The notes under the pieces: generated by a model
The model's database searches: none
Told to the model about the DNA's origin: nothing
The model's input: the letters and a program-made list of their open reading frames with translations, nothing else
Made by a program: the position numbers and the translations under genes
Part shown: positions 41,716 to 64,000 of the stretch, piece by piece
How positions within the stretch are numbered: position 1 is the stretch's first letter
Layout: each line of letters begins with the position of its first letter
Origin: Acidimicrobiales bacterium
GTDB taxonomy: Bacteria; Actinomycetota; Acidimicrobiia; Acidimicrobiales; Iamiaceae
Direction: 5' to 3'
NCBI GenBank assembly: GCA_020439505.1
Contig: JAGQSO010000001.1
Location: 62,001-126,000 of the forward strand
Length of the DNA: 64,000 nt

Positions 41716-43173
41716 TCAGTCCGGGGATTGCCCTGTTGCCATCGCGGCGAGGCTTGCCGTGGCGTCGGGGTCGGTGATGGGTAGAACCGCCCGCAGAGGT
41801 CCTTGGTCACCCAGGGCGCGGCGCAGGGCCTGGTGGCCTGGGGTCGAGGGAGCGGGGAGGTCGGTGGTGAGCACGACGACCTCCATGTCGGTGGCGGCCC
41901 GGATGACGGCCGCCTGCCCGATCACCCGCCACAGCTCGTCCGAGCGCCTCAAACCGGACCGCGAGTTGGTGAACCCGCCCGATGTGATGAAGGCCCAGGG
42001 TCTACCCGATGGGTCGTGGGCGACGAGGTCGACCTCGACTCCGGCTCCCCGTGGGCGGACCTTGGTGGTCACGTCGCGGAAGCCGGCGGCCTCGACGAGG
42101 AGGCGGGCAACGTCACGACTGCCGAGACCGGCCCGGAGGGCGTCATCCACCGAGGCCGCCTGTCCGGCGCGGTCGGTGGGCTGGAGCCCGGACAGCTCGT
42201 CACCCACCTGGAAGGCGACCCGACGGGGGTCGGGGTCGGTTTCGGTGGCCAGGCGACGGCCCGCCAGCTCTATGTACTCGGCGTCGGTGTCGAATCCGAT
42301 GAAGTGCCGGCCGGTTCGCCGGGCGGCCACCGCGGTACTACCCGACCCCATGAACGGGTCCAGCACCACGTCGTTGGCGTAGGTGTACAGGTCGATGAGC
42401 CGTTGGGGGAGCTCGACGGGGAACGGCGCGGGGTGGCCTACCCGGGTGGCGCTCTCGGTGGGGATCTCCCACAGGTCGGTGGTGGCTTCCATGAACTCGT
42501 CGCGCGAGACGGTGACGGTGGAGGGCAGCCCGCTCTCCTGTCGTCGGCGAGGCTCCAACGCCCGGTCGAAGCGACCCTTGCTGGCGATCACGATGCGTTC
42601 GGTCACGTCGCGCAGCACCGGGTTCGCCGGTCGTTGGAACGTGCCCCAGGCGCAGGATCCGCCCGCAGCCCGGCCCTTCCACCAGATCACCTCGCCTCGC
42701 ATCAAGAGGCCCAGGTCTTGAAGGATCGCGGTCACGTCGCCCGACAGCGAGCGGTACGGCCGACGGCCGAGGTTGGCGACGTTCACCGCGATGCGACCGC
42801 CAGGCTCCAGCACCCGTTTGCACTCGGAGAACACGCCGTGGAGGAGCTCCAGGTATTCGAGGTAGGTGGCGGGAACGCCGTTCTCCCCCAGGCTCTGCTC
42901 GTACTGCTTGCCGGCGAAGTAGGGAGGCGACGTGACCACCAGGGCCACCGACCCGGTCGGGATCATCGACATGTCCCGAGCGTCGTGGTGGTGGATCACG
43001 TCCAGCTCCTCGGGGGTGCTGACGGTCTGATCGGTGGTCAGCTCGGGACTGGTGAATCGGGCGTAGAAGTCGCGTGCGTCGTGGCTCTCGCGCCGACCGG
43101 ACCCGAAGGCCGCGGTGGCGGTGGCGCGTCGGGTCCGGGAACTCGAGCGGGTGTTCGGAACGGAGGCGGTCAC
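41716..43173 (-). CDS. Beta-class DNA methyltransferase with C-terminal eroded PD-(D/E)XK-like domain
   Basis: A 485-residue protein. Motif IV TSPPYF (81-86) precedes motif I DPFMGSGST (272-280), the beta-class order of N4-cytosine/N6-adenine methyltransferases; HPAPFPVELPQRLI (247-260) resembles N4-cytosine enzymes. Residues about 345-470 form an extra domain with GVEVD (378-382) and WAFITSGG that aligns with the stand-alone protein at 61313-61906; the nuclease Glu and Lys are replaced by Phe395 and Thr397. GTG start overlaps the stop of the ribbon-helix-helix gene (GTGA). No separate restriction endonuclease gene is adjacent. Target sequence unknown. Confidence 0.88.
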   Translation of the reverse strand: MTASVPNTRSSSRTRRATATAAFGSGRRESHDARDFYARFTSPELTTDQTVSTPEELDVIHHHDARDMSMIPTGSVALVVTSPPYFAGKQYEQSLGENGVPATYLEYLELLHGVFSECKRVLEPGGRIAVNVANLGRRPYRSLSGDVTAILQDLGLLMRGEVIWWKGRAAGGSCAWGTFQRPANPVLRDVTERIVIASKGRFDRALEPRRRQESGLPSTVTVSRDEFMEATTDLWEIPTESATRVGHPAPFPVELPQRLIDLYTYANDVVLDPFMGSGSTAVAARRTGRHFIGFDTDAEYIELAGRRLATETDPDPRRVAFQVGDELSGLQPTDRAGQAASVDDALRAGLGSRDVARLLVEAAGFRDVTTKVRPRGAGVEVDLVAHDPSGRPWAFITSGGFTNSRSGLRRSDELWRVIGQAAVIRAATDMEVVVLTTDLPAPSTPGHQALRRALGDQGPLRAVLPITDPDATASLAAMATGQSPD

Positions 43174-55916: not shown

Positions 55917-57821
55917 TCAGGTCGGTTCGAGCCAGAGCACAGAGAAGGGAGGCAGGGTCAACCGGGCCGAGGCCGGCTGTCCGTGGATCGCCTCGTCGGT
56001 GGCGACGACCGAACCCTGGTTACCCATGTCGGATCCGCCGTAGTGGGCGGAGTCTGTGTTGAGGACCTCCCGCCAATGACCGGCGCGGGGCAAGCCCAGT
56101 GGGTATCGGGATCGGGGCACCGGTGACAGGTTGGCCACGCAAACCAACGGATCGGCATCGGGACCGGTCGGCCAGCGGATGAAGGCTGCCACGTTGTGGT
56201 CGGCGTCGTCGCTCACCAGCCAGGCGAAACCGCCGGGCTCGGAATCCCCGTCCCACAGGGCGCGATGGCCCCGCTGGATCCGGTTCAGGTCTCGCACCAG
56301 ATCCTGGACACCCTGATGGTGGAGGTCCGCCAGGAGATGCCAGTCCAGCGAGCGGTCATGGTCCCACTCGCCGGCCTGGGCGAACTCGCCCCCCATGAAC
56401 AGGAGCTGCTTGCCGGGATGGGCCCACATCCACCCGTACAGGGCCCGCAGGTTGGCGAACTGTTGCCAGCGGTCGCCGGGCATCTTGGTCAGCAACGACC
56501 GCTTCTCGTGGACCACCTCGTCGTGGGACAGCGCCAGCACGAACCGCTCGGTGAAGGCGTAGTGGAGCGAGAACGTCAGGTCGTGGTGGTGGTGGCGACG
56601 GTGCACCGACTCGGTGGAGAAGTAGGCCAGGGTGTCGTGCATCCAGCCCATGTTCCACTTGGCCGAGAACCCGAGGCCGTCCCAGGCGGTGGGGGCGGTG
56701 ACCCGGGGCCAGGCGGTCGATTCCTCGGCGACGGTGACGACTCCGGGGTGACGGTCGGTCACCGCGTCGTTCAGCTCGCCGAGGAGCGATATCGCCTCCA
56801 GGTTCTCGCGTCCGCCGAACTGGTTGGGAAGCCAGTGGCCGTCGGGACGGGAGTAGTCGAGGTAGAGCATCGAAGCGACGGCGTCGACCCTCAGACCGTC
56901 GACGTGGAACTCCTCCAGCCAATACAGGGCGCTGGACAACAAGAAGCTGCGGACCCCACCCCGCCCGTAGTCGAACACCAACGTGCCCCAGTCGGGGTGC
57001 TCGCCCCGCCGGGGGTCGGGATGTTCGTAGAGGGCCGAGCCGTCCAGGCGGGCCAGCGCCCACTCGTCACGGGGGAAGTGGGCCGGTACCCAGTCCAGGA
57101 TCACCCCCACCCCGGCCTGGTGGAGGGTGTCGATCAGGAAGGCCAGGTCCTCGGGCGTGCCCCACCGGGCGGCGGGAGCGAACAACGACGTGACCTGGTA
57201 ACCCCACGAGCCCCCGAAGGGATGGTGCATCACCGGCAGCAGTTCGACGTGGGTGAACCCCATGTCCACGGCGTAGGCGGCGAGCTCGGGGGCCACCTCG
57301 CGGAAGCCGCGTTCGCGCTCGGGCTCGGCGGGGTCCCGACGCCACGACCCGACGTGAACCTCATACACCGACATCGGCCGTCGCCAGGGGTCCGTCGTCG
57401 ACCGATCGGCCATCCACCCCCCATCGGCCCAACTGTGGCGCAGACGGTGGACGATCGAGGCGGTGTCGGGAGCCGGTTCCGCCCGGCGGGCCACGGGATC
57501 GGCGTGCTGGGCGGTGACGTCGTCGCGGCCGGTGACGGCGAACTTGTACCGGTGGCCCTCGTGGGCGTGGGTCGAGGTTCCCTGCCACACCCCGCCGGTG
57601 CGGGCGAGGGGATCAGCGCCCTCGACCCAATGGTTCCAGTCCCCCACCACCGACACCGCAGTGGCATCGGGCGCCCACAGCGAGAAGTGGACGCCTCGGT
57701 CGAAGTCGTCACCCTGGAGGGGGTGCGCGCCCAGCCGTCGGTGGAGATCGAGGTGGCGGCCGTCGTCGAGCAGGTGGAGATCCAGCTCCGTCACCTCGTG
57801 GCCCACCGGGTCGGTCACCAC
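55917..57821 (-). CDS. glgB: 1,4-alpha-glucan branching enzyme
   Basis: A 634-residue GH13 enzyme. Residues about 25-125 are a CBM48-like module (HFSLWAPDATAVSVVGDWNHW). The barrel has VYEVHVGSW, DWVPAHFPRDEWALARLDGSALYE, FHVDGLRVDAVASMLYLDYSR (nucleophile Asp), VTVAEESTAWP (acid/base Glu) and LALSHDEVVHEKRSL (transition-state Asp). It makes alpha-1,6 branches in glycogen or capsular alpha-glucan. The gene overlaps the maltokinase stop by 7 bp, so it belongs to the glgE operon. It is shorter than two-module GlgB proteins of about 720 residues. Confidence 0.95.
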   Translation of the reverse strand: MVTDPVGHEVTELDLHLLDDGRHLDLHRRLGAHPLQGDDFDRGVHFSLWAPDATAVSVVGDWNHWVEGADPLARTGGVWQGTSTHAHEGHRYKFAVTGRDDVTAQHADPVARRAEPAPDTASIVHRLRHSWADGGWMADRSTTDPWRRPMSVYEVHVGSWRRDPAEPERERGFREVAPELAAYAVDMGFTHVELLPVMHHPFGGSWGYQVTSLFAPAARWGTPEDLAFLIDTLHQAGVGVILDWVPAHFPRDEWALARLDGSALYEHPDPRRGEHPDWGTLVFDYGRGGVRSFLLSSALYWLEEFHVDGLRVDAVASMLYLDYSRPDGHWLPNQFGGRENLEAISLLGELNDAVTDRHPGVVTVAEESTAWPRVTAPTAWDGLGFSAKWNMGWMHDTLAYFSTESVHRRHHHHDLTFSLHYAFTERFVLALSHDEVVHEKRSLLTKMPGDRWQQFANLRALYGWMWAHPGKQLLFMGGEFAQAGEWDHDRSLDWHLLADLHHQGVQDLVRDLNRIQRGHRALWDGDSEPGGFAWLVSDDADHNVAAFIRWPTGPDADPLVCVANLSPVPRSRYPLGLPRAGHWREVLNTDSAHYGGSDMGNQGSVVATDEAIHGQPASARLTLPPFSVLWLEPT

Positions 57822-59293
57822 TGGAGCGCTCCGGCCCCGGGGCCGACGAGGCGGCGGTCCAACCGGTCCAGGACCGTCACCAGTCCAGCGGTCGGCACCT
57901 CTACCCAGTCGGGCCGGTGGGCCATCTCGTAGCCGATCTCGTACACCGCCTTTTCGATCTCGTGGAGGGAGAGGAGGTCGACGGTGGTGGCCGACGACGG
58001 CGGCAGCAGTGACCGATCAGCGGCGGCGAGGTAGCCGTCGAGCAACGCAGCGCGCGCCGCGGCCTCCCACCCCGGCGTCTGCGCTCCTCCGCTGCGCCTC
58101 ACCGTCTCCACCGCGTAGGAGAGCGATCGGACGAGCCCGGCCAGATCGCGCAGGGCGGGGTGTCTCCGGCGCCGCTCGACCAGCGGCCGTGACGGTTCAC
58201 CCTCGAAGTCGAGGATCACCCAACCGTCGGGGCCGACGACGGTCTGGCCCAGGTGCAGGTCGCCGTGGATGCGGATGGACCTCCCCCGGTCCACGGCCGC
58301 GAGTCGGTGGGCGAGGGCAGCCAGAATCCGGTCGGTGCGGGTGACCAGGTGGTGCCCGACGAGGGCTTCGAGACGGGCCAGGTCCTCGGTGACCCCGACG
58401 ATGGTCCGGTCGATGTCGTCGAAGGTGGTGGCGACCGAGCCGAAGGAGTCGGTTTCATCCCCCGGTCGGGCCAGGAACCGGTGCAGGTCGGCGACGTCGG
58501 AGCCCAAGCGGTGAAGAGGGTCCAGGACCCCGCCGGCGTCGGCGACCAGACCCGATAGAACCATGCCCCAACCGTCGAGCGCGCCGGGCACGAGGCGGTG
58601 CACGGTCCCGGCGACCGTGACTCCACCGGTGTCATCGGTCAGCTCGTACCACCCGGCCAGGGGCGCGACCGGGATGCGCCGGGTCGAGGTGGCGGCCTGG
58701 TGGTGCAGGTGGATCCCGACCTCCACCTCGGGGTGGATGCCCGGAGCCAGCCGCCGCAGCACCTTGAGCACGTGGGTACCGCCCACCACGGTTGAGGTGT
58801 TGGTCTGGTCCACCCCCAGGGGTCGGGGGAGACGGCGGCCGGGAGCGGAAACGCCGGCCAGCCAGTGGCCGACGACCGTGGCGGCGGGTCCGGTGACGGT
58901 CGCTTGGTCGACGCAGATCCGGGTGAGGACCTTGGCGACCGCAGCGTCACCGGCCGTGTCGGGTGGGGCGGTACCGGCGGGTGCGCCGGCCGTGCCGGCG
59001 GTGGTGGATCGTCGCGTGGTCGGCTTCGGTCCCGAGCGCAGCAACTGGTAGCGGTGGCCCGCCGCCGTCGAAGCGGTGGTCAGCTCGACGGGGGGATCCT
59101 CGGCCAGGACCACCGGGGTGGTCAGCTCCAACCCCGGCGGGTGGTCGGGGTCGTCGCCGTCGCCGGGTGACGGGCCCGGTCCGGCTTGGCGGACGAACCA
59201 GCGTTGTGCGATCAACCAGCGGGCGACCGCCTCGGGCGAGGGACCGCTGGTCGGGGTCGGTGTCGGGGTCGATTTCGGGGTCGGCTCGGTCAC
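57815..59293 (-). CDS. mak: Maltokinase (Pep2-type)
   Basis: A 492-residue protein with an APH/HSK-like kinase fold. The ATP/catalytic segment RIHGDLHLGQTVVGPDGWVILDFEGEP (about 355-380) and the NTSTVVGGTHVLKVLRRL lysine segment match maltokinases that make maltose-1-phosphate, the GlgE substrate. The N-terminus has a Thr/Pro-rich start. GTG at 59291-59293 overlaps the glgE stop as GTGA; a longer frame upstream lies inside glgE. No TreS domain is fused. Confidence 0.9.
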   Translation of the reverse strand: MTEPTPKSTPTPTPTSGPSPEAVARWLIAQRWFVRQAGPGPSPGDGDDPDHPPGLELTTPVVLAEDPPVELTTASTAAGHRYQLLRSGPKPTTRRSTTAGTAGAPAGTAPPDTAGDAAVAKVLTRICVDQATVTGPAATVVGHWLAGVSAPGRRLPRPLGVDQTNTSTVVGGTHVLKVLRRLAPGIHPEVEVGIHLHHQAATSTRRIPVAPLAGWYELTDDTGGVTVAGTVHRLVPGALDGWGMVLSGLVADAGGVLDPLHRLGSDVADLHRFLARPGDETDSFGSVATTFDDIDRTIVGVTEDLARLEALVGHHLVTRTDRILAALAHRLAAVDRGRSIRIHGDLHLGQTVVGPDGWVILDFEGEPSRPLVERRRRHPALRDLAGLVRSLSYAVETVRRSGGAQTPGWEAAARAALLDGYLAAADRSLLPPSSATTVDLLSLHEIEKAVYEIGYEMAHRPDWVEVPTAGLVTVLDRLDRRLVGPGAGALQW

Positions 59294-61293
59294 GGCTCGG
59301 TCACCACCAGCAGGTGGGCCGGGCGTGGCCCTGGTTCGAGCCGGACGTAGTTGCGTCCGATGTGCCACCGGTATCGGGCACCGTGCAGTTCGTCGATGAC
59401 CTCGAAGGCGGGAGGTAGGCCGAGATCGTCGGGCACGATGCATACGCCCTCGGTGGCGGTGTCAGCGAGGAGGACCACACAGATCACCGTGCCGGCACCC
59501 GGAGCGGCCGATGGAGCGACATCGCCAGGCCGGGCGGGTTTGGCGTAGGCGAGGAGTCCGGGGTTCTCCGTCTCGAGGAAGCGGATCCCCTCCAGGTACC
59601 CGAGTGCTGGGAGTCGTCTGCGCAGCGAGTTGAGGTGGGCGACGAGGGGCAGCAGTCGACCGTTCAGCCGTCGGTCGTGGACCTCGTACTTCTCCGAGTC
59701 CAGGTATTCCTCGGAGCCCTCGGCCACGGAGGTCTGCTCCAGTGCCTCGTAGCCCGAGTAGAGGCCGTAGGAGGGCGAGAGGGTGGCGGCCAGGATCAGC
59801 CGCGACGCGAACGTCGACTCGTCGCCCCGCTGGAGCTGTTCGGTGAGGATGTCGGGGGTGTTGACCCAGAAGTTGGGTCGGAAGATCTCGGCCTCCTCGC
59901 CGGCCAACTCCTCGACGTAGCCCCGCAGATCGGCTGCGGTCTGCTTCCAGGCGAAGTAGGTGTAGCCCTGGGAGAAACCGATTCGGCCCAGCTCCTGCTG
60001 CATGGCCCGATAGGTGAAGGCCTCGGCCAGGAATATCACCTCGGGGTGCGACGCCCGCACACCGGCGATCAGCCATTGCCAGAACGGCAGCGGCTTGGTG
60101 TGGGGATTGTCGACGCGGAAAACCCGAACCCCGCGGTCGACCCAGGTGAGCACCACGTCGCGCAGGGCCGACCACAGAGCGCGCCAGTCCTCGCAGTCGA
60201 AATCGACGTTGTAGATGTCCTCGTAGCGCTTGGGGGGGTTCTCGGCGTATTTGAGCGTCCCGTCGGGTCGGTGGGCGAACCATTCGGGATGCTCGGTCAG
60301 CCAGGGGTGGTCGGCGGAGCACTGGACCGCCAGATCCAGGGCGATCTCCAACCCCAGGGAGCGGGCATCGGAGACCACGGCCTCGAAGTCCGCGGTCGAT
60401 CCCAGTTCGGGGTGGACGGCGTCGTGCCCACCGGTATGGTCACCGATCGCCCACGGGGAACCGGGATCGAGCGGCCCGGCCTCCAGCGCGTTGTTGCGGC
60501 CCTTGCGTTTGGTGAGCCCGATGGGGCTGACCGGGGGGAGGTAGATGACGTCGAAGCCGGCTTCGGCCAGAGCGGGCAGGCGTCGACGCAGGCCGTCCAG
60601 GCCGCCCCACGAGCGCGGGAACAACTCGTACCAGGCGCCGAAGCGGGCCAGTACCGGGTCCACGTCGAGGTTTGCTGGCGCGCCGAGCGACGCGGCACGT
60701 CGACGGTCGGGGTGCTGGCCGGTGATCAACGCCAGGTCGTCGTCGAGGGCCGCCGCCACCCGTCGGGCCGTGTCCTGGGCGGTGTCACCGACGATCTCGG
60801 CGGCGAGCCGGATCGGTTTGGCCACCAGCCGCGAGGCGTGGGTCCCGTCGGCTTCGGCGCGCAGAGCGCAAGCGAGCAGCAGGGCCGCACCCTCGGCCAA
60901 CTCGCTGTCGAGGTCGGCCTGGCCTGCCTGGGACTTGCGCGACAGTTCCACCGTCCACGACTCCAAGGGATCGGCCCACGCCCGCACGTCCCAACGCCAC
61001 CGGCCCGGTCGGTCGACGGTGAACGACCCGCCCCAGCGGACCCCCAGCGAGGCGGCGTCGAGGTGGTGGAGCTCGATCACCGACGGAACGGTGTCGTCGG
61101 GGCCGTGGATCAGCGCCTCGACCCGCAGCACCTCGTGACCATCGCGGATCACGTCGACCGCCACCTTCACGGTGTCACCGACCACCCGCTTGGGGGCGTA
61201 GCGGCCGCCGTCGACGCTGGGGAGAGGTCGGGCCACCGTCACCCGCGGCGGGGCCGCTTCGGGAGGAGCGAAGGGGTCGGCGGACCGGGTCAT
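59290..61293 (-). CDS. glgE: Alpha-1,4-glucan:maltose-1-phosphate maltosyltransferase
   Basis: A 667-residue GH13_3 enzyme that extends alpha-1,4-glucan with maltosyl units. The N-terminal domain (RVTVARPLPSVDGGRYAPKRVVGDTV) and the barrel motifs VIYLPPVSPIG, LGLEIALDLAVQCSADHPW, VRVFRVDNPHTKPLPFWQWLI (nucleophile Asp) and VIFLAEAFTYRAM (acid Glu) are all present. ATG at 61291-61293. It is the second gene of an operon starting with a nuclease-like protein; maltokinase and branching enzyme follow by overlap. Confidence 0.95.
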   Translation of the reverse strand: MTRSADPFAPPEAAPPRVTVARPLPSVDGGRYAPKRVVGDTVKVAVDVIRDGHEVLRVEALIHGPDDTVPSVIELHHLDAASLGVRWGGSFTVDRPGRWRWDVRAWADPLESWTVELSRKSQAGQADLDSELAEGAALLLACALRAEADGTHASRLVAKPIRLAAEIVGDTAQDTARRVAAALDDDLALITGQHPDRRRAASLGAPANLDVDPVLARFGAWYELFPRSWGGLDGLRRRLPALAEAGFDVIYLPPVSPIGLTKRKGRNNALEAGPLDPGSPWAIGDHTGGHDAVHPELGSTADFEAVVSDARSLGLEIALDLAVQCSADHPWLTEHPEWFAHRPDGTLKYAENPPKRYEDIYNVDFDCEDWRALWSALRDVVLTWVDRGVRVFRVDNPHTKPLPFWQWLIAGVRASHPEVIFLAEAFTYRAMQQELGRIGFSQGYTYFAWKQTAADLRGYVEELAGEEAEIFRPNFWVNTPDILTEQLQRGDESTFASRLILAATLSPSYGLYSGYEALEQTSVAEGSEEYLDSEKYEVHDRRLNGRLLPLVAHLNSLRRRLPALGYLEGIRFLETENPGLLAYAKPARPGDVAPSAAPGAGTVICVVLLADTATEGVCIVPDDLGLPPAFEVIDELHGARYRWHIGRNYVRLEPGPRPAHLLVVTEP

Positions 61294-61312
61294 GGGCTTG
61301 CGGCGGACCCCT

Positions 61313-61906
61313 TCACCAGTTCTTGAGCCGGGCGGTGGACGTGGGGTCGTACAGGCAGACGACATCGGCGAAGCAGCGGATGTCCATGGCGGCTCGCAAC
61401 ATGGCGGCGCCCGACCCGGCCTCGGGAAGATGCGAGGTGACGACGACGTAGGGGGCCGGAGTGGGAAGGCTCCGCAGCAGGGCGCCGTTGGCGATGGCCT
61501 TCTTGAGGGTGTCGGTCCGGCGCAGACCGGGCCGCGTGCCCTGGACACTGCCCTTGTACTCGAACCAAACCACCTGCCCCTTGGGGCTGACGGCCTCCTG
61601 GTCGATCTCCACGCCGACCTCTCTGATGACCTTCCGGCCCTTGAGCGTGAAACCCAGGTGGGTGAGCAGGGTGTCGCACTGTTCGGCGAACTGGCGGCCC
61701 TGGATGCTGGCCGACGCCTGGAAGGATCGGGCCGGCCCCGGGTCGCGCCTGCGGTCCCGGGTCGGAAGGTGGGCCCCACCCCATGGGCTCTCCTCGTTCT
61801 CGTCGACCTCGAACTCCGACTCCGTGGTCGAACCGGTGTCACCGGTCTCGACGTGAGTGAAGAAAGAGTCCTGTCCTCCGAGGGGTGGGTGGTCCGACGG
61901 TGCCAT
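61313..61906 (-). CDS. PD-(D/E)XK nuclease-like protein upstream of glgE
   Basis: A 197-residue protein. An acidic, disordered N-terminus (1 to about 65) precedes a compact domain: QCDTLLTHLGFTL (about 76-88), GVEID (98-102), VVWFEYKG (112-119), PGLRRTDTLKKAI (126-138) and YVVVTSHLP (153-161). D102, E116 and K118 fit the D...ExK active site of PD-(D/E)XK nucleases. The same order occurs, without the catalytic Glu and Lys, at the end of the DNA methyltransferase at 41716-43173. It starts the glgE operon (19 nt gap), with TAGGCT 8 nt before its ATG. Nuclease activity is predicted, not shown. Confidence 0.68.
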   Translation of the reverse strand: MAPSDHPPLGGQDSFFTHVETGDTGSTTESEFEVDENEESPWGGAHLPTRDRRRDPGPARSFQASASIQGRQFAEQCDTLLTHLGFTLKGRKVIREVGVEIDQEAVSPKGQVVWFEYKGSVQGTRPGLRRTDTLKKAIANGALLRSLPTPAPYVVVTSHLPEAGSGAAMLRAAMDIRCFADVVCLYDPTSTARLKNW

Positions 61907-61914
61907 CCCGGCCG

Positions 61915-61920
61915 AGCCTA
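61915..61920 (-). promoter_or_regulatory. Leaderless -10 candidate (TAGGCT) for the nuclease-like/glgE operon
   Basis: TAGGCT on the minus strand ends 8 nt before the ATG at 61906. Confidence 0.5.
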
Positions 61921-62068
61921 CGGCGGCCGAGGACCTCGGGTACCACGATCTGGCCGACTGTGTCCTGGCCGGCCGTGTCCTAGCCCGGGTTGTCTTCGGT
62001 CGGTGGCCCAGTCGGCCGCGCCTGGCTCGGTAGCCTCGGGGCGGTAGTACCTGGTTCGGAGGGACGCG

Positions 62069-64000
62069 GTGGCAAGCAAACGGGGGCGGTCCCTGACCTT
62101 GGTGGTGGTGGCACTGGTGGCCATCTTGGGCCTGGTCGGCGTGGCGACCGCCGTGTACCTGTCACGTAGCGGTGAAAGTTCCCCCCGGCGTGACCCGCGG
62201 CGACCGGGCGTGGACGTAGAGGACCCGGCGGTAGTGGCCGCTGACCGCTTCGCTGCCGCGGTCACCAGCGGCGATTTCACCGGTATCAAGGTGAGCGACC
62301 CCACCCTCACGTCAGCCCAGGTCGGCGAGCAGGTCGATCTGATGCTCACCGGGATGCTCACCGGCGGGGCCGCTCGTCCCACCGTCGAGGTGTCGAAGGT
62401 CGTGCGGGGGACAGGTGAGAACTCCGACACCGCCCAGGCCACCACGCGGATCACCTGGAAACTTCCCGGGGGCCAGAGCTGGACCTATGACACCTACTGG
62501 ACCCTGATCGACTTCCTGGAGGCCAAGGGGGCCGAGCGCGAGTGGCGGGTGAGCCTCAGCGTGGACCGCCTGTTCCCGGCCGAAGCCAACGGAGGCGTGG
62601 TCCGCATGGTGCGGGTACCGGTGGCCCGCGGTCGGATCCTGGATTCCACCGGCCGACCACTGGTGGCCGGGGGTGGCAGGGTGACCGTCGGCATCCGCAG
62701 GAGCCGTACCACCGACCCCGAGGGCACCGCCCGCAAGGCTGCCGCTCTCACCGGGGTGGATGCCGAGGAGCTGTTGGCCCGGGTGCTGGCGGCGGGTCCC
62801 GACGAGTTCGTCACCGTCGCCACCTTGGATCGTCCCGCCTACGACCTGATCCGCGCGGAGATCCAGCCGTTGCCGGGAACCGTGTTCACCGAGCAGGCGG
62901 CCGAGACCGACCTACCGGCCGGTTTCGCCAAGGGCGTGCTGGGGAGCGTGGGGCCGGCCACCGCCGAGATCGCCTCGGCATCGGACGGCAAGGTGGTCGA
63001 GGGGGACCTGACCGGTCTGTCGGGGGTGCAGCAGGCCCGCAACCCGCAGTTGGCGGGTGAACCGGGTATGAGGATCGAGGCGGTGAGCACCGATCCCGCC
63101 GCCACGGTCACCTCGCTGAAGGAGTACCCGGGGCGTCCGGGGACCGACGTGACCGTCACCCTCGATGCGGCGGTGCAGATGGCGGCCGACGCCACCCTGG
63201 CCACATCGAGTCAACCGGTGGCGCTAGTGGCGGTGCGGGTCAGCACCGGTGACGTGATCGCGGTGGCCAACGGACCGGCCGGCTCGGCCGGCTACAACCG
63301 GGCCTTCCTCAACCGCTACCCGCCGGGCTCGACGTTCAAGGTCGTGTCGGCCCTGGCCTACCTGGAGGGTGGTCTCGGCCCCGACGACATCGTCTCCTGC
63401 CCGGCCACCGTGGTGGCGGGCAAGCGGTTCCGCAACGCCGGAGGTTTCGCCCTGGGTGACGTGCCGTTCCGTCGGGCCTTCGCCCGGTCCTGCAACACCA
63501 CCATCGTGGCCCACTCGGACTCGATCACCTCCCAGCAGCTGACCGACACCGCCCGCCTCCTCGGCTTCCGTGACCTCGACGGCGAGTTGGGCATGGACGT
63601 GTTCGGCACCGAGGTTCCCGTCACCGACAACGAGACCATGCACGCCGCCAACACCATCGGTCAGGGCAAGGTGGAGGCCAGCGCCCTGACGGTGGCGTTG
63701 ATGGCCGGCTCGGTCGCCAACGGTTCGTCGCTGATGCCGCGGCTGTTCCTCGACCCCGGGGCTCCGGCGCCGGTGATGGGACCGGCCCTTCCCGCCCCCG
63801 CGGTGGCCTCCCTGCGCGAGATGATGCGTGACGTGGTCACCGACGGCACCGGTTCGGCGCTGGAGGGCGTTCCCGGCGGTCCGGTCCACGCCAAGACGGG
63901 TACCGCCGAGTTCGGCACCGACGACCCGCCCCGCTCCCACGCCTGGATCACCGGCTGGCAGGGCGACATCGCCTTCGCGGTGGTGGTCGAGGACGGTGGC
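62069..64000 (+). CDS. Penicillin-binding protein 2-class transpeptidase with NTF2-like domain (3' end cut)
   Basis: The first 644 residues are present; the gene runs past the window end. An N-terminal membrane anchor (about 9-31) is followed by an NTF2-like MecA_N domain (about 52-160), a dimerisation domain (about 170-375) and the transpeptidase: active-site Ser in STFK (S421), SCN at 474-476 and KTGTAEF at 609-615. It cross-links peptidoglycan as a class B PBP, like mycobacterial PBP-lipo, but with a membrane helix and no lipobox. GTG at 62069 with GGAGGGA about 5 nt upstream. TAGCCT about 33 nt upstream may be its -10. It diverges from the glgE operon. Confidence 0.92.
   Translation, partial: MASKRGRSLTLVVVALVAILGLVGVATAVYLSRSGESSPRRDPRRPGVDVEDPAVVAADRFAAAVTSGDFTGIKVSDPTLTSAQVGEQVDLMLTGMLTGGAARPTVEVSKVVRGTGENSDTAQATTRITWKLPGGQSWTYDTYWTLIDFLEAKGAEREWRVSLSVDRLFPAEANGGVVRMVRVPVARGRILDSTGRPLVAGGGRVTVGIRRSRTTDPEGTARKAAALTGVDAEELLARVLAAGPDEFVTVATLDRPAYDLIRAEIQPLPGTVFTEQAAETDLPAGFAKGVLGSVGPATAEIASASDGKVVEGDLTGLSGVQQARNPQLAGEPGMRIEAVSTDPAATVTSLKEYPGRPGTDVTVTLDAAVQMAADATLATSSQPVALVAVRVSTGDVIAVANGPAGSAGYNRAFLNRYPPGSTFKVVSALAYLEGGLGPDDIVSCPATVVAGKRFRNAGGFALGDVPFRRAFARSCNTTIVAHSDSITSQQLTDTARLLGFRDLDGELGMDVFGTEVPVTDNETMHAANTIGQGKVEASALTVALMAGSVANGSSLMPRLFLDPGAPAPVMGPALPAPAVASLREMMRDVVTDGTGSALEGVPGGPVHAKTGTAEFGTDDPPRSHAWITGWQGDIAFAVVVEDGG

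Follow-up and report, generated by a model that had tools for sequence, protein, structure and literature searches.

A free-standing PD-(D/E)XK gene next to glgE as the probable nuclease of a restriction-modification pair whose methyltransferase ends in an inactivated version of the same domain

Analyses of a small gene located immediately upstream from glgE in the window, the 64,000-nucleotide stretch of DNA examined here, suggest that its product, P0001, is probably the active endonuclease of an uncatalogued restriction-modification pair formed with a family of β-class N6/N4 DNA methyltransferases (coordinates are given in Table 1). Judged from sequence comparisons, P0001 would cleave DNA, and the methyltransferase would protect the site. 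The original prediction had described an apparently intact PD-(D/E)XK-like protein encoded by the first gene of the glgE operon; the PD-(D/E)XK protein, its family of active and inactive members, and an accidental linkage to glgE were supported, whereas the methyltransferase partner, the archaeal and viral homologs, and the lack of an active partner for most tails had been missed. Methyltransferases with a dead nuclease tail occur in roughly 40% of the genomes sampled from the class of the source organism (122/296 match the family), the live-nuclease relatives of this tail have no counterpart in any of four curated family libraries, and the rare genomes with a live nuclease point to the origin of the tail, offering a direct way to ask why cells keep an inactive restriction enzyme attached to a methyltransferase.

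Table 1. Features of the window and of related loci
Feature	Coordinates	Strand	Remarks
P0001, free-standing PD-(D/E)XK nuclease gene	61313-61906	-	ATG start, 197 aa
P0001 nuclease domain, residues 62-197	61316-61723	-	AlphaFold2 prediction
P0001 N-terminal extension, residues 1-61	61724-61906	-	Low complexity; degenerate motif DHPPL
D102 codon	61601-61603	-	D in 27/27 free-standing, 10/42 tails
E116 codon	61559-61561	-	E in 27/27 free-standing, 1/42 tails
K118 codon	61553-61555	-	K in 27/27 free-standing, 0/42 tails
DNA methyltransferase, TSPPY type	41716-43173	-	485 aa; Pfam N6_N4_Mtase, E 1.1e-38; putative P0001 partner
C-terminal tail of the methyltransferase	41719-42147	-	Same fold; FITSGG replaces FEYKGS, catalytic E/K gone
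glgE	59290-61293	-	667 aa; Pfam GlgE_dom_N_S, E 3.2e-35; neighbor outside the proposed system
Penicillin-binding protein (Transpeptidase, PBP_dimer)	62069-64000	+	Divergent neighbor, cut by the window end
Broken free-standing nuclease in G072	G072:C1:343888-344079 (within L037)		One internal stop; follows intact tailed methyltransferase and acidic protein
L/R-type free-standing gene	L223:1840-2727	-	
L/R-type free-standing gene	L224:5872-6585	+	
L/R-type free-standing gene	L225:5655-6557	+	
L/R-type free-standing gene	L226:5637-6653	+	
Acidic protein, example	L036:1910-2254	-	
Acidic protein, example	L034:4392-4778	-	
Acidic protein, example	L032:9255-9647	+	

Predicted fold and catalytic residues of P0001

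The last 136 residues of P0001 were modeled by AlphaFold2 as a PD-(D/E)XK core (pLDDT, 94.7; pTM, 0.90) with the element order α-β-β-β-α-β (H2-22, E26-33, E38-45, E51-57, H70-83, and E92-96 of the domain), in which D102 lies within the second strand and E116 and K118 lie within the third. As modeled, the protein combines the two hallmarks of the superfamily, the core fold and the conserved catalytic D and (D/E)xK; the predicted fold and the invariant triad agree with an apparently intact PD-(D/E)XK protein, and no other fold was suggested by the model. Structural comparison of the domain with VIA-align placed BsoBI first (Z 10.2), followed by XisH, Cdn1, BstEII (9.4), EndoMS (9.0), and PspGI (8.9), with Cfr10I (8.4), BbvCI (7.7), and the small subunit of BspD6I (7.0) lower down; Foldseek alone returned weak matches (best E, 4.5e-3). 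At the sequence level, P0001 matched no profile over the cutoff in Pfam, NCBIfam, PADLOC, or PHROGs and no Pfam family even to E 10, NucS_C included, and a search of the sequences of solved structures returned no relative. No description of the nuclease family or of the dead methyltransferase tail was found in the accessible portions of the open literature.

The gene is under purifying selection (dN of ~0.10 versus dS of ~0.68 against its closest relative, L041), and conservation of a short N-terminal motif in relatives argues for the annotated ATG. D102, E116, and K118, with their nuclease-like spacing, were invariant in an alignment of free-standing proteins (n = 24 rows) and were kept in 27/27 bacterial free-standing, 4/4 archaeal, and 14/14 viral rows, so the poor conservation that might have told against a nuclease was not seen. 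One domain alignment was made without duplicate domain sequences and fragments of <100 aa, and two omitted the decayed locus L068 and L069, which is a tail; the viral alignment, from which some near-identical viral rows had been dropped, contained 90 rows, 9 of them tails, out of 93 references prepared.

The methyltransferase tail is an inactivated relative

When P0001 was compared with its own genome, the only match other than itself was the 3′ end of the window methyltransferase gene (37% identity over 111 aa; E, 2.3e-8), which confirmed the similarity proposed from inspection. The enzyme, of the TSPPY type, belongs to the β class and not the γ class, and its methyltransferase part was likened to TTHA0409 and to rotifer m4C and CcrM enzymes. 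The predicted elements of the tail (H352-362, E366-372, E381-386, E392-398, H411-427, and E431-436, in blocks mostly above 90 pLDDT) follow the same fold, and tails as a group are basic (median pI, 9.4). Their catalytic positions have been lost: the residue aligned with K118 is S in 31/42 tails, T in 5/42, and K in none, D replaces E116 in 39/42, and N replaces D102 in 26/42. In one genome, G442 (L232:6476-8328, minus strand), the methyltransferase and dead tail occupy separate adjacent frames, as a split gene or through a frameshift.

In a tree of 91 rows, 14 of them viral, the tails formed one clade (support, 100/100), the free-standing bacterial nucleases grouped together (93/91), and the viral, archaeal, and L/R-type genes each formed one group; the alignment spanned 136 columns, many of the forks are open, and the long archaeal and L/R-type branches may be joined falsely. 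Since all tails fall into one clade, the tail seems to have been fused and to have lost its active site only once and to have been kept for a long time afterwards. The L/R-type genes are free-standing genes of one family (in G413, G432, G471, and G549) in which L and R replace the catalytic E and K, and they represent a second, separate inactivation; those of L223 to L225 are convergent with a tailed methyltransferase. The census and the tree together support the proposal of one family with active, free-standing members and inactive members fused to methyltransferases.

The existence of dead members (42/42 tails and the four L/R-type genes) raises the question of whether the fold of P0001 might likewise be a binding domain without nuclease function. 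We consider this very improbable: the triad is kept in all 27 rows of the nuclease group, dN/dS is low, and loss of the residues is limited to other clades.

Pairing of nuclease and methyltransferase genes

Because the two genes are not adjacent in the window (~18 kb apart), the argument from pairing is carried by relatives. In 13/13 more distant bacterial homologs (L051 to L063, counting L056, whose contig holds only the tail end), the nuclease gene lies directly downstream from the methyltransferase gene in the same direction; the adjacent methyltransferase of L054 and L063 is tail-less. A methyltransferase of the family is present in 24/24 genomes with the nuclease (the window and L041 to L063), 22 by a tail match and 2 as the adjacent tail-less form. 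In archaea, the nuclease gene converges on a tail-less methyltransferase gene in 5/5 of L064 to L068 and also in L236 and L238, where the methyltransferase frames are broken or partial, and no methyltransferase was found within the 2 kb of L237; in all, 7/8 archaeal loci have this arrangement, decayed in some. Outside the class, a tail-less methyltransferase accompanies an intact nuclease in two Actinomycetota, G361 (convergent) and G372 (tandem). The association of a nuclease gene with a methyltransferase gene that is typical of Type II systems is thus found in the relatives (13/13 bacterial loci, 5/5 of L064 to L068, G361, and G372). In the clade of the window (L041 to L050 and the window itself), both genes are on one contig in 7/11 genomes, about 2 to 19 kb apart, and on different contigs in 4.

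These arrangements suggest a probable history. The plain form of the pair would be that of archaea and a few Actinomycetota, in which the methyltransferase has no tail and a free-standing nuclease is its neighbor. Within Actinomycetota, the nuclease domain appears to have been copied and fused once to the C terminus of the methyltransferase, where it lost its catalytic residues, after which most lineages probably dropped the free nuclease and retained only the tailed methyltransferase. In the clade of the window, the nuclease gene has probably drifted from the methyltransferase gene within one neighborhood, ending up before glgE in the window and L041.

Linkage to glgE

The P0001 stop codon is 19 nt from the glgE ATG (61293) on the same strand, and P0001 had been described as the first gene of the glgE operon, a description that, in terms of position, fits the window and L041 but no other locus. 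A separate promoter had also been proposed for it but was not supported: a simple scan of 61200-62200, limited to the σ70 consensus, gave neither a promoter-like nor a terminator-like site. Downstream from glgE, an open reading frame of 542 aa (57815-59443, minus strand), with no Pfam match at E 0.001, may be the usual maltokinase-like partner, judged by position only.

Shared position would be expected if P0001 were a functional part or regulator of the GlgE α-glucan pathway, and glgE does lie within about 30 nt of the homolog in L041 and within 4 kb in L042, L046, L048, and L049. It was not seen, however, in the fetched flanks (≤6 kb and shorter at contig ends) of 5/10 close relatives and 13/13 others, and a penicillin-binding protein gene is near the nuclease gene in 8/10 close relatives. 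The survey of co-occurrence proposed earlier gave the same picture: among the 296 genomes of the class sample, GlgE was found in 48 and the intact nuclease in 6, and both were found only in the source genome, G000; 5/6 nuclease genomes had no GlgE domain match, and 47/48 GlgE genomes had no nuclease gene. The reading is largely refuted, with next to no probability left to it, and an α-glucan role was rejected on the co-occurrence (1/6) and the glgE-less flanks of most relatives. With glgE patchy near homologs and co-occurring only in G000 of the class sample, whereas the family methyltransferase accompanies the nuclease in 24/24 genomes, the adjacency appears to have arisen by local chance within a shared stretch of chromosome, the first of the two explanations originally offered. 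P0001 illustrates how gene order can mislead, the neighbor of glgE being most likely a stranded restriction-type gene.

Rarity and decay of the nuclease

Patchy occurrence is usual for restriction-modification systems, including those of Type II, and is what was found here: 110 genomes of the class sample match P0001 and 122 match the tail profile, nearly all through tails of long methyltransferase frames, while an intact free-standing gene was found in 6/296 (G000, G084, G068, G100, G279, and G191) and in 4/300 and 1/246 genomes of two further samples, counts that are lower bounds on presence, many sampled genomes being incomplete assemblies. A scan of an 84,980-species collection returned 29 loci, comprising 23 free-standing bacterial genes (about 53 to 84% identical), 5 archaeal relatives, and 1 tail. 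Nuclease loss is in progress in G072 (Table 1), and in the Nitrosocaldus locus L068 both genes are decayed, with stops inside the nuclease gene and a broken methyltransferase. The same numbers carry an argument against a restriction system, as the tailed methyltransferase (122/296) is far commoner than the nuclease (6/296) and the tail has a life without it.

Restriction or repair

Repair directed by methylation would also account for a nuclease adjoining a methyltransferase. The main rival to restriction is that P0001 is a nuclease coupled to replication or repair on the β sliding clamp, which, much as MutH or EndoMS/NucS do, would read the mark set by the methyltransferase to distinguish strands or newly made DNA and would serve no defense. 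Its starting point is a motif, [QE]LP[LFM], found near the N terminus in 10/10 of L041 to L050 (for example, SDQLPL, PDELPF, and SDQLPF), although the linker after it varies. The motif resembles β-clamp motifs, and mycobacterial ImuB binds the clamp via QLPLWG, according to the accessible text of PMC10421592. In P0001, however, the counterpart is degenerate (SDHPPL), and no such motif was found near the domain start in L051 to L059 and L061 to L063; operonic nuclease genes often begin at the domain, several of these right at it, whereas the relocated clade has an N-terminal extension. Clamp-like strings also occur at the C-terminal end of L222 (QEKLFEG), near the start of L060 (QLQLI), and in 9/47 methyltransferase linkers against a shuffled mean of 1.1 and maximum of 7 (1,000 shuffles), with a regular expression picked after inspection and 4 of the 9 matches from near relatives.

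EndoMS is itself a structural neighbor (Z 9.0) and shares with P0001 a possible clamp motif, in the part of PMC8228993 available to us, and a phage homolog lies inside a replication module. P0001 nevertheless has no NucS_C match, and NucS is encoded separately in 14/24 genomes with the nuclease gene, G000 among them; on these grounds, P0001 was not assigned to EndoMS/NucS. A rare, patchy, and decaying gene is also unlike a repair core gene. We favor restriction because of this rarity and decay, the archaeal pairing, and the separate NucS, and regard a repair role as unlikely.

Under restriction, the methyltransferase would most likely mark the site and the nuclease would cut DNA lacking the mark. 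As a single-domain protein with no obvious recognition part, the nuclease might cut as a small dimer that has a specificity of its own, or it might depend on the methyltransferase, and the latter would explain retention of a nuclease-like tail. Among 4-mer, degenerate 5-mer, and 6-mer palindromes, none showed avoidance confined to genomes with the nuclease; G027 and G002, used as controls, have diverged tails and so serve only as controls without nuclease. A rare or degenerate recognition site would leave little avoidance trace, and site avoidance is common in Type II systems, not defining. CTAG was low in all genomes compared, and the low level of TTCGAA extended to genomes that have the tailed methyltransferase alone. 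CTAG and AGCT are sites suggested in the accessible parts of papers on archaeal methyltransferases (PMC6471742 and PMC6329791); as sites of the P0001 system they stay unsupported.

Comparison with known systems

With the Type IIP PD-(D/E)XK enzymes BsoBI, BstEII, PspGI, and Cfr10I, P0001 shares the core fold, the D/ExK order, and, in its relatives, pairing with a methyltransferase, but it consists of a 136-residue core only, with no large recognition insertions and no detectable sequence relation. The Type IIT enzymes BbvCI and BspD6I, as far as the available text of PMC4081073 describes them, also have two related nuclease domains per system and a small nuclease without its own recognition domain; they need two live sites, however, whereas the second domain here is dead and fused to the methyltransferase, and membership was rejected on the lysine, present in 0/42 tails. 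Type IIG enzymes likewise join a nuclease domain and a methyltransferase in one chain (PMC4389544, in the part accessible), but the tail of the window enzyme is C-terminal and inactive, and the enzyme is of the TSPPY type, matching N6_N4_Mtase, and not γ; this class was rejected as well. In the same partial source, HVO_A0006 is, like P0001, a free PD-(D/E)XK protein tied to methylation but corresponds to an N-terminal fragment of a IIG enzyme, and the two are set side by side by description only. CcrM, the CTAG enzyme of haloarchaea, and other orphan methyltransferases are similarly widespread, with no partner nuclease in most genomes (accessible text of PMC6471742); the window family differs in carrying a dead nuclease domain and in having a partner nuclease that survives in a few lineages.

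Acidic protein and a possible split system

An acidic protein of ~110 aa (pI 4.1 to 5.1) is encoded directly after the tailed methyltransferase in 19/48 genomes, including some without nuclease, a count taken from 64 rows with duplicate loci collapsed by hand and a few having too little downstream sequence. It lies between the methyltransferase and nuclease genes in 8/13 operons (L051, L055 to L059, L061, and L062). It matched nothing known in our searches, and neither the window nor the fetched flanks of the close clade yielded it. The tail and the nuclease may come together in a complex. A more elaborate arrangement, which we think rather unlikely, is that the live and dead copies form a split restriction system in which the basic tail pairs with the nuclease to place it on the site of the methyltransferase, the acidic protein restrains the tail or the nuclease, and short clamp-binding motifs tether the parts to the replisome; in genomes without the nuclease, the tail would persist as a module for the control of methylation, in many cases together with the acidic protein.

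Viral homologs

In viral contigs, 135 relatives were reported by a scan, and 80 of these were kept. The fetched flanks of the viral homologs contained no methyltransferase of the window's family, and their best matches, both below threshold, were to UPF0102 (E, 0.0026) and Mrr_cat (E, 0.003). The homolog in Synechococcus phage Sf-FR1, annotated as a NO VEIN C-terminal domain protein, is located inside a replication module, near a DNA methyltransferase without significant similarity to that of the window. The phage homologs (L070 to L149 and L150:6019-6417) are small, have the triad intact, and in some cases come from cyanophage contigs, where one of them (L124) lies beside psbA.
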